IMG/VR virus record: IMGVR_UViG_3300048927_000180 | Location: 1 to 39,783 of that record | Length of the DNA stretch: 39,783 nucleotides | Reading direction: 5' to 3' (one strand) | Origin: a virus | In this document: positions 13,147-15,649 of the stretch, piece by piece | How the letters are laid out: each line of letters begins with the position of its first letter | How positions within the stretch are numbered: position 1 is the stretch's first letter | Made by a program: the position numbers and the translations under genes | Notes under the pieces: generated by a model | Database searches by the model: none | What the model saw: only the letters and a program-made list of their open reading frames with translations | Told to the model about the DNA's origin: nothing

Positions 13147-14600
13147 ACGCCCATTTCACCCCAGACGCGCGCCTGATGGACGGGATTACCGAAGACGACA
13201 TCTTCGCCGCTGAAGAGGGAATCCTCGCCAGCATCCTCAACAAGAACGAATTGCTCGGCCAATGCGGGCTAGAGCCGTCCGACTTCTCCGAGGAGCTTCA
13301 CCGCACGATCTTCGCATCCATCCAGCAGCTTTGCGCCGGCCATCAGATCGCGGATGCTTCGACGATCAAGCCGTTCATGCCGAGGGTATGGCAAGGCCTT
13401 GATATCTCCCCGGCGGAATATCTCAACCGCCTGCAGAAAGCCGGCTTTTACACCATCCAGCAAGACCATGAGGGCAGGCTGCAGCTCGTCAAGGGCGCGG
13501 CCATGTCTCGCCAGCTTGCTCGAGAGGCCGAATTCATAGCCGCGCTTGCGAAGGAAGGACATTCGCTCCTCACCCTTGGGGATGAAATCGAGGGCGTTGA
13601 AAAGCGCCTGAAGGAATTGCAGGGCAGGTTCTCCGAGACCCGAGCCATCAAAGCACCCGGCTCGTCCTATCTGGCGGCCTTCCAGGCGTCCTCCAAGCGC
13701 GATGGTGTCATTGGAGTACCCATTGCCCTGCCTGAGATAGCGAAGGTGCTCTCAGAGCCTGTATTCGAAGCAGGGAACCTCTACGGCCTGCTGTCGTCGA
13801 GTGGAGAGGGAAAAACGAGCCTCACGGTTCAGCTCATCCTCCACGCCATCAAGGAAGGCCACCCGGTTCTCTTCTTCTCATACGACGAGTCCTCAGTGCA
13901 GATCATCCGCCGCATGATCGCCATGGAATACGGGATCGAAATGCGCCAGCAGCGCGACCCAATGCGCATGATGAGCGAACGGGAACGCGACCAGTGCGTC
14001 GCCTTTGCCTCTTGGATCGATCAGCAGTTCTTCGAGGTCATCCGCTGCCAGCGGGAAGGGATCGAGCAGCTCATCGCCTACGCCCGTCGCTTCGTGAAGA
14101 AGGTACGCAAGGCTGGCTGCAAGAAGACACCGCTCGTCGTGCTCGATCACGTCGGCAAGGTGAAGCCAAGAGACCCGAAGCTCTCGGCCGACCGCATCAG
14201 CGGCGACATCACGGTAGAGGCCAAGTCCTGCGCTGATGAAACGGGATCTGCCTGGCTGGCTCTGAACCAGAGAAACGGTTTCGGCGACAAGCGTGACAAC
14301 CCGCGGCCGATCGCTGCCGACCTCTACGGCGGCACTGGGGCCCGAGCCGATTATGATGCGGTTCTCTACCTCTATTCCGCCGAGAAATACAAAGCCGAGC
14401 GGGTGAAGGTGGCCGCGTCTGATGCCGATTGGAAGAAGATCAACCGTGTTTTCGGCTCCGACATCGAGGGAATTCGCGAGCTGGGCGCAATCAAGGTTCG
14501 CTTCGGAGATCCCACCATCACGGAGACGGTGAAATTTGAGCCCCGGTATGCCCGGTATGGTTCCAATGCGCCAGCGCGCCCAGCGGAGTTGGATTTCTGA
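13143..14600 (+). CDS. DnaB-like replicative helicase
   Basis: 485 residues starting MNAHFTPDARLM. The ATG at 13143 overlaps the RuvC-like stop; a longer open frame upstream is only a shadow of that gene. Residues 20-110 resemble the DnaB N-terminal domain (EEGILASILNKNELLGQ...FSEELHRTIFASIQQL). The RecA-like ATPase core has Walker A SSSGEGKTS (about 218-226), PVLFFSYDES, Walker B PLVVLDHVGKV (about 330-340) and ALNQRNGFGDKR...LYGGTGARADYDAVLYLY. It unwinds the phage replication fork. No helicase loader or primase was recognised, so primase may come from the host. Confidence 0.9.
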   Translation: MNAHFTPDARLMDGITEDDIFAAEEGILASILNKNELLGQCGLEPSDFSEELHRTIFASIQQLCAGHQIADASTIKPFMPRVWQGLDISPAEYLNRLQKAGFYTIQQDHEGRLQLVKGAAMSRQLAREAEFIAALAKEGHSLLTLGDEIEGVEKRLKELQGRFSETRAIKAPGSSYLAAFQASSKRDGVIGVPIALPEIAKVLSEPVFEAGNLYGLLSSSGEGKTSLTVQLILHAIKEGHPVLFFSYDESSVQIIRRMIAMEYGIEMRQQRDPMRMMSERERDQCVAFASWIDQQFFEVIRCQREGIEQLIAYARRFVKKVRKAGCKKTPLVVLDHVGKVKPRDPKLSADRISGDITVEAKSCADETGSAWLALNQRNGFGDKRDNPRPIAADLYGGTGARADYDAVLYLYSAEKYKAERVKVAASDADWKKINRVFGSDIEGIRELGAIKVRFGDPTITETVKFEPRYARYGSNAPARPAELDF

Positions 14601-15649
14601 TGGAAGTTCTCGATCTCTTCAGCGCTGCGGCGGGTGGCTGGTCTCTCGGCATGCACCGTGCTGGCTTCAAGACCATAGCCGCCTGCGAGTTCGTCGACTG
14701 GCGCCGCGCACTCTACCAGGAAAACAATCCAGGGGTTCTCATCTATGACGATGTCCGCACGCTCACAGCAGATCAGCTTGTTCGAGATCTTGGGCGACTT
14801 CCATCCGTCATCGTTGGAAGCCCGCCCTGTCAGGACATCAGCAGCGCCAACACCAAGGGCAAAGGCGTCGAAGGCGAGCGGAGCGGCCTCTATTTCGAAG
14901 CCGTCCGCATCATCGGAGAGTGCCGCCCTCGTTGGTTCGCTCTTGAAAACAGCTCTAATCTCAGAACTCGGGGCGCTGACGCCGTCCTCGCTGCACTGGA
15001 AGCACTCGGCTACGCCTGCTGGTCGTTTGTGGTGCGTGCTGGCGACATCGGAGCCAACCATGAGCGCCCTCGATGCTGGATTATCGGTTGCGATGTCGAG
15101 CAAGCTACCAACACCGATGGCATCGGATGGAATGAAGGATGGAGCCGGGGGAGGAGCGGGATCGACATATCCATTCCGAATGATCCTCTCGACGCCCAGG
15201 GCATCGGACATGAAGGCGGGAGGCCACGGCGCGCCGGGGAGAACCGGAACGGTGCGCCATATGTTGCACGAATCCTACCTGCCGACGCCGAGAGCTTCGG
15301 AAGCGCACCACGGGCCGGATATGACCTCGCACAGCCCCAACATCAAAGCGCGGATGCAAAACGACGACCCGCGGTGGTCGGGAGCGAGGGCGCTTGCGGA
15401 TATCCTTCAGAGCCATGGTCTGAGTGGAACCACGGCATTGCCGGTCACTTACGGATGGATGATGGGCTTTCCGCCTGGTTGGCTGGCACGCGCGTTGCGC
15501 TCGGCACTCCAAAAGGGACATGTGCGGCAAGTCTCATCGTCGAAGCGTTCGGTGACGCCGTCGTCCCCCAAATCCCCGAGGCAATAGGCCTCGCAATCCT
15601 CCGTACAGAACGAGCGCTGGCCGCGATTTATGGAAAGGCAGCAGCATGA
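14600..15649 (+). CDS. dcm: DNA C5-cytosine methyltransferase
   Basis: 349 residues. Motif I is DLFSAAAGGWSLGM (SAM site); motif IV is VGSPPCQDISSAN with the catalytic Cys (C77); motif VI is ALENSSN (catalytic Glu 116); motif VIII is NHERPRCWII; and motif X is FGDAVVPQIPEAIGLAI at the end. Between VIII and X the chain is Gly/Arg/Ala-rich and low in structure, which is the target-recognition region. It transfers a methyl group from SAM to cytosine C5, probably protecting phage DNA from host restriction; no paired endonuclease is seen. The start shares one base with the helicase stop. A second long frame is nested in its 3' four fifths. Confidence 0.9.
   Translation: MEVLDLFSAAAGGWSLGMHRAGFKTIAACEFVDWRRALYQENNPGVLIYDDVRTLTADQLVRDLGRLPSVIVGSPPCQDISSANTKGKGVEGERSGLYFEAVRIIGECRPRWFALENSSNLRTRGADAVLAALEALGYACWSFVVRAGDIGANHERPRCWIIGCDVEQATNTDGIGWNEGWSRGRSGIDISIPNDPLDAQGIGHEGGRPRRAGENRNGAPYVARILPADAESFGSAPRAGYDLAQPQHQSADAKRRPAVVGSEGACGYPSEPWSEWNHGIAGHLRMDDGLSAWLAGTRVALGTPKGTCAASLIVEAFGDAVVPQIPEAIGLAILRTERALAAIYGKAAA
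14745..15587 (+). CDS. Nested overlapping gene inside the methyltransferase
   Basis: A 280-codon open frame, offset by +1 from the methyltransferase and contained wholly within it. Its translation contains motifs I recognise from phage proteins usually found beside cytosine methyltransferases. These are SLHWKHSATPAGRLWCVLATSEP (residues about 82-104), repeated LPTPxASD-type stretches (KLPTPMASDG, LSTPRASDMK, LPTPRASEAH) with GRTGTVRHML, and a C-terminal TYGWMMGFPPGWL. These positions sit over the weakly conserved recognition region of the host gene. AGGGG lies 11 nt before ATG 14745; ATG 14751 is an alternative. Function unknown, possibly linked to the methyltransferase. It may be a genuine overprinted gene, or a frame left by an ancestral fusion. 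Confidence 0.6.
   Translation: MTMSARSQQISLFEILGDFHPSSLEARPVRTSAAPTPRAKASKASGAASISKPSASSESAALVGSLLKTALISELGALTPSSLHWKHSATPAGRLWCVLATSEPTMSALDAGLSVAMSSKLPTPMASDGMKDGAGGGAGSTYPFRMILSTPRASDMKAGGHGAPGRTGTVRHMLHESYLPTPRASEAHHGPDMTSHSPNIKARMQNDDPRWSGARALADILQSHGLSGTTALPVTYGWMMGFPPGWLARALRSALQKGHVRQVSSSKRSVTPSSPKSPRQ

Follow-up and report, generated by a model that had tools for sequence, protein, structure and literature searches.

A long gene nested in a phage cytosine methyltransferase as the probable second chain of a two-chain C5 enzyme

C5-cytosine DNA methyltransferases of phages commonly protect against restriction. M.EcoHK31I is a two-polypeptide C5 methyltransferase with the target YGGCCR; Lee, Kam and Shaw are reported to have found in 1995 that the gene of its large chain also contains, in another reading frame, the coding sequence of its small chain, both chains reportedly being needed in vitro. 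The large chain comprises motifs I-VIII and X and has been described with a predicted target-recognition domain, the small chain bearing motif IX only (PMC3404938). M.AquI is naturally split in another way: motifs I-VIII lie on one chain, the distal variable region and motifs IX-X on the other (PMC3404938).

The present study analysed a window of 39783 bases, the whole stretch of viral DNA in record IMGVR_UViG_3300048927_000180, whose genes include a replicative helicase, terminase, portal and major head. The window holds a C5 methyltransferase gene, here termed alpha, and a long open reading frame nested in it, here termed beta. In the reading favoured here, to which we assign a probability of about 0.87, one DNA stretch encodes both chains of a two-chain C5 DNA methyltransferase, with beta supplying the small domain that alpha lacks.

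The two frames and their parts

Alpha was identified by a profile search (PF00145, 6.4e-32, residues 1-171) and by a sequence match of M.HaeIII to residues 2-167. Its AF2 model was confident for residues 1-170 (mean pLDDT about 92) and for a helix at residues 324-348 (mostly above 90), and foldseek returned M.HaeIII as the best solved-structure match (8.9e-15), M.HhaI also being matched. Among the features of the catalytic domain, motifs I, IV (PCQ), VI (ENS/ENV), VIII (RxR) and X were found in alpha, the last with F317, G318, D319, V321, P323 and Q324 invariant across 27 relatives. Residues 178-286, where the small domain normally sits, are predicted to be disordered. A preliminary description of this DNA had credited the methyltransferase with all main motifs, which does not hold for motif IX: the alpha frame lacks it at its usual place, after the variable region and ahead of motif X, and it was observed instead in the +1 frame, that is in beta. 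The start of alpha overlaps the stop codon of the upstream helicase (TGATG, 14598-14602) and its end overlaps the downstream start (ATGA, 15646-15649), an arrangement that suggests translational coupling across the operon.

Table 1. Features of the alpha and beta frames in the window.
Feature	Position	Strand	Details
Alpha chain, C5-cytosine DNA methyltransferase catalytic subunit	14600-15649	+	349 aa; motifs I-VIII and X, without motif IX
Shine-Dalgarno-like AGGGG	14731-14735	+	9 nt 5' of the beta ATG
Alpha codons YDDV; shifted reading gives beta start ATG ACG ATG	14744-14755	+	Sequence
Putative beta chain, nested gene, target-recognition region and motif IX	14745-15587	+	280 aa, ATG, +1 frame of the alpha ORF
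Beta residues 83-101 (LHWKHSATPAGRLWCVL region), predicted beta-hairpin	14991-15047	+	pLDDT about 85, blocks 81-100 (AF2)
Beta LPTP module 1 (LPTPMASD)	15105-15128	+	Sequence and relatives
Alpha passenger stretch, residues 178-286	15131-15457	+	AF2 pLDDT <50
Beta LPTP module 2 (LSTPRASD)	15186-15209	+	Sequence and relatives
Beta LPTP module 3 (LPTPRASE)	15279-15302	+	Sequence and relatives
Beta motif IX (LPVTYGWMMGFPPGWL)	15438-15485	+	hhalign to SPAFVEWLMGLP of single-chain relatives, immediately 5' of their motif X
Alpha motif X (EAFGDAVVPQIPEAIG)	15542-15589	+	AF2 pLDDT >90 for blocks 321-340

The 280-codon +1 frame with its ATG start inside the methyltransferase is present as first described, and the peptide blocks pointed out at that time (a WKHSATPAGR...W region, three LPTP-type stretches and a C-terminal WMMGFPPGWL) were recovered as WKHSATPAGRLW, as LPTPMASD, LSTPRASD and LPTPRASE, and as GWMMGFPPGWL. 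The statement that both frames are recognisable was also borne out, phrog_1008 ('DNA methyltransferase') giving a profile match of 1.8e-17 to the nested frame (3.1e-15 in the whole record) beside the PF00145 match to alpha. The predicted hairpin region of beta lies over the catalytic domain of alpha, ahead of motif VIII, and across 27 relatives W85, S88, T90, P91, A92 and W96 are invariant there, as are P233, W238, M239, G241, P243 and W246 in motif IX. Diverse beta C-termini take NPxWVEWLMGFPxGWTDL-like forms, with WLMGFPxGHT endings also occurring, and the number and order of LPTP modules vary from phage to phage. When beta was modelled alone by AF2, the mean pLDDT was 60.6, with the LPTP stretch largely below 50 and the hairpin at residues 83-101 and the C-terminal helices better predicted; foldseek with this weak model gave no match below E 1. 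Such a poor model of the lone chain fits a protein that would need its partner.

The candidate start of beta is preceded by a Shine-Dalgarno-like sequence, and the anti-SD duplex energy of the 14-nt stretch 14727-14740 is -6.0 kcal/mol, compared with -6.1 at the alpha start. Over 28 beta starts the mean anti-SD energy was -4.67, against -2.54 at same-phase positions. The beta ATG was found at the homologous place in all 28 relatives, at an offset of +145 from the alpha start in most. In Salmonella phage S9-5 (locus L370, from 1114), the ATG that opens the nested frame comes 4 nt behind the start of alpha, and the frame (247 aa) takes up nearly the entire gene.

Constraint on the nested frame

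The likelihood of a chance open frame was estimated by synonymous codon shuffling, which keeps the alpha protein, with 5000 trials per gene. A +1 run as long as that in the window was reached by 51 of the 5000 shuffles, and ORF length alone, in this GC-rich gene, is modest evidence for beta. In ten out of ten diverse phage methyltransferases, AT-richer ones included, the observed +1 run was reached by at most 51 of 5000 shuffles, and in three by none. An antisense ORF of 279 codons over the same place (14372-15211, minus strand) contains 3-6 stops in each of nine relatives, and it is probably a composition effect because it is broken in all nine.

Both frames are retained in more than 60 contigs, and their conservation was also seen in Rhizobium phages. 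The preliminary description had counted stops in the nested frame of homologous genes as evidence against it; the frame proved open in nearly all relatives, and the exceptions (L030, L031 and L033) look frameshifted. It had also proposed an analysis of synonymous and nonsynonymous change in both frames, which, carried out on six ungapped relatives, gave a dN/dS of 0.19 for beta overall, the +2 control frame being without constraint. Over the variable region dN/dS was 0.11-0.14 for beta and 0.48-0.63 for alpha, and over alpha motifs IV-VIII it was 0.07-0.14 for alpha and 0.26-0.49 for beta; the N-terminal half of beta is accordingly less clearly constrained, with the upper interval near 1. Difference rates in the variable region at catalytic-frame codon positions 1, 2 and 3 were.353,.141 and.096 in nested forms and.189,.114 and.401 in canonical ones, so that the varying position is 1 in nested enzymes and 3 in canonical enzymes, and is mixed in single-chain ones.

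Conservation of and selection on both frames were thus observed directly and, over the variable region, the beta frame carries the constraint and the alpha frame is a nearly unconstrained passenger. The nested frame had been placed over a weakly constrained recognition domain of the methyltransferase; dN/dS, codon-position rates and AF2 point to the reverse assignment, in which the nested frame is the recognition domain. A chance ORF was rejected on the frame-specific selection and the broken antisense control, and from these sequence data the nested +1 ORF appears to be real, conserved and selected.

Relatives, distribution and rival explanations

The frame of motif IX was surveyed with an HMM; the betas used to build it came from outside the survey sets. 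In the viral survey, a scan with alpha alone that covered the best 80 of more than 590 relatives, motif IX lay in the +1 frame in 72 of the 80, in the alpha frame in three, and in both frames or in +2 in none, with three unresolved and two truncated. Among 80 bacterial-genome loci it lay in +1 in 41 and in the alpha frame, with LPTP-type modules, in 11, again never in both or in +2; a further 17 had a canonical motif IX in the alpha frame without an LPTP-like match in +1, and the remaining 11 were unresolved, truncated or unanchored. Class labels in both surveys were assigned in part by regular expressions and HMM scores, with a check by eye for a part of the loci.

Some loci depart from these layouts. 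In L031 (2838-4031) and L030 the frames appear swapped part-way, L031 joining the N-terminus of alpha to the C-terminus of beta; either a genuine frameshift or a fault of assembly may be the cause. In Mycobacterium phages Llama, Ochi17 and others, the nested-frame match falls in two pieces over 592 nt, which suggests a one-base indel splitting the gene into two annotated methylases.

In single-chain relatives (L196, L210, L211, L214, L230 and L236, and L324, L326 and L327 of Streptomyces), the LPTP-type modules, then RxxPxFxEWxMGxxxGxVT and then motif X (GNGVV) were directly observed to follow one another in the catalytic frame, the LPTP forms being degenerate in L212, L230 and L236. The beta family aligned with these relatives over the LPTP-to-motif-IX region (hhalign probability 98.2, E 2.8e-14). 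Because single-chain relatives carry these parts in the catalytic frame, beta would be the recognition region and motif IX of the same methyltransferase. The earlier suggestion of overprinting therefore stands for two protein-coding, selected frames at one place, but not for a nested frame belonging to a second, different gene family. Homologues of the nested frame outside such overlaps, which the preliminary description had left to protein searches, were found in-frame in single-chain enzymes and, among the phrog_1008 loci considered below, in no free-standing form.

Intermediate layouts also exist. In a second actinobacterial class (e.g. L193, L216 and L232) the LPTP modules are in +1 but the alpha frame carries motifs IX and X; by blastp these +1 modules match the in-frame modules of single-chain enzymes with E down to 4.6e-26. 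A few peptide modules were found in either frame, in different phages. One gene of Saccharothrix (L306) has LPTP modules not only in the catalytic frame but also in +1. L270 and gp7/gp6 of Mycobacterium phage YungJamal look AquI-type, the second chain comprising the recognition region, IX and X.

A free-standing beta was not found among 37 phrog_1008 loci, 30 of which had alpha in the expected overlapping frame by regular expression; inspection of six of the other seven (all but L406) showed alpha also in L392 and L401 and apparent truncation in L378 and L405, and gave no verdict on beta for L402 and L404. A free-standing beta family was rejected, since nearly all checkable phrog_1008 loci lie in an alpha gene.

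Matches to phrog_1008 occurred in 28 of 399 sampled Pseudomonadota genomes, and nested genes are present in E. coli, where the A16 prophage has such a pair (L369, 1352-2380), and in a Salmonella phage. The catalytic-domain tree and its input set place the nested form in at least nine phyla, with nested rows from Pseudomonadota, Bacillota, Bacteroidota, Actinomycetota, Planctomycetota, Verrucomicrobiota, Nitrospirota, Myxococcota and Thermodesulfobacteriota. In this tree, which is quick and unrooted and has many weak branches, canonical enzymes formed one group (support 96), and single-chain, intermediate and AquI-type forms fell in one 20-row group inside the nested ones, actinobacterial where the host is named. 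The simplest reading would be that the interleaved form is older within the family and the single-chain LPTP form derived, the direction of change being only a suggestion because of the limits of the tree. Judged by sequence, the arrangement is a recurrent and largely unannotated one in phages and prophages of many bacterial phyla. Whether it ranks, with its at least nine phyla, among the most widespread overlapping gene pairs in bacterial viruses, with modules relocatable between frames, an older interleaved form and single chains re-formed in an actinobacterial lineage, is a proposition to which we give even odds.

For the two-chain reading, we infer translation of beta, its association with alpha, methylation, a target site and an anti-restriction role as follows. 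Alpha, starting at 14600, would fold as a catalytic domain with motifs I-VIII, to which motif X returns at the C-terminus. Beta would initiate independently at the ATG at 14745, most likely from the same message, and would contribute the missing small domain, consisting of the LPTP target-recognition modules and motif IX. Binding of the two chains would rebuild a complete C5 methyltransferase, with the LPTP modules setting the target site, and site-specific methylation of the phage genome by the rebuilt enzyme would most likely serve as an escape from host restriction.

Programmed ribosomal frameshifting could also reach the second frame, giving a single mosaic chain in place of independent initiation, and the actinobacterial relatives in which motifs IX and X are back in the alpha frame after +1 modules would suit it. 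The ATG at the homologous beta position in all 28 relatives, together with its SD-like signal, argues against this route; so does motif X, which follows the beta stretch but is read in the alpha frame, so that two shifts would be needed. We regard frameshifting as very unlikely. Beta might also be an independent protein with a role of its own (e.g. a regulator or an anti-defence protein) that happens to overprint the methyltransferase gene, but we consider this very unlikely. In its favour, beta has a start of its own and an N-terminal part that is partly folded and of which no counterpart was seen in single-chain L196. Against it, alpha lacks motif IX at the very place where beta has one, the parts of beta are those of the recognition region of single-chain relatives, and among the phrog_1008 loci beta was not found apart from an alpha gene.

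It is hardly credible that alpha is the sole product and that the +1 frame stays open as a by-product of GC-rich composition and conserved alpha motifs. The shuffles that equal the +1 run in the window, and the conserved alpha motifs that underlie the N-terminal part of beta, agree with a by-product; however, the free codon position over the variable region is the wobble position of beta and not that of alpha, the +2 frame shows no such effect, and in relatives stops interrupt the antisense ORF of matching length.

If the two-chain reading is true, the nested gene skipped by most phage annotations seen is half of a common enzyme, and specificity predictions made from alpha would read passenger sequence. 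The genes annotated as complete methyltransferases lack motif IX, so that alpha cloned by itself is expected to be inactive. The single-chain, split and interleaved forms provide a large natural series for studying the origin of long overlapping genes and the sharing of constraint between frames, and the shuffled recognition modules a set for working out target specificity.

Comparison with described enzymes

A general account of nested C5 methyltransferases was not found in the open literature, in which few subscription journals were covered and which yielded mentions of EcoHK31I and AquI only. What looks new is the breadth of the arrangement, target recognition in the nested frame, and the existence of relatives with recognition modules in different frames. 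The family of the window beta is already represented by phrog_1008, whose label is silent on nesting in another methyltransferase frame. The layout of the window is shared by gp62/gp63 of Paenibacillus phage Lily, gp63 being annotated 'g62 internal gene', although the recognition region is much shorter there and has a single LPTP module.

Unlike alpha, M.HaeIII and M.HhaI are single-chain enzymes that themselves carry motif IX and the recognition domain. M.AquI differs from the window in two respects, motif X lying here in the large chain and the small chain being nested inside alpha. The published precedent for motif IX being carried by a second chain of a C5 enzyme is M.EcoHK31I. The window shares with its description a large chain of motifs I-VIII and X, a small chain with motif IX and the reported encoding of the small chain in a second frame of the large-chain gene. 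The window departs from it in that, as judged by selection and single-chain homology, the recognition modules would lie in beta and not in the large chain.
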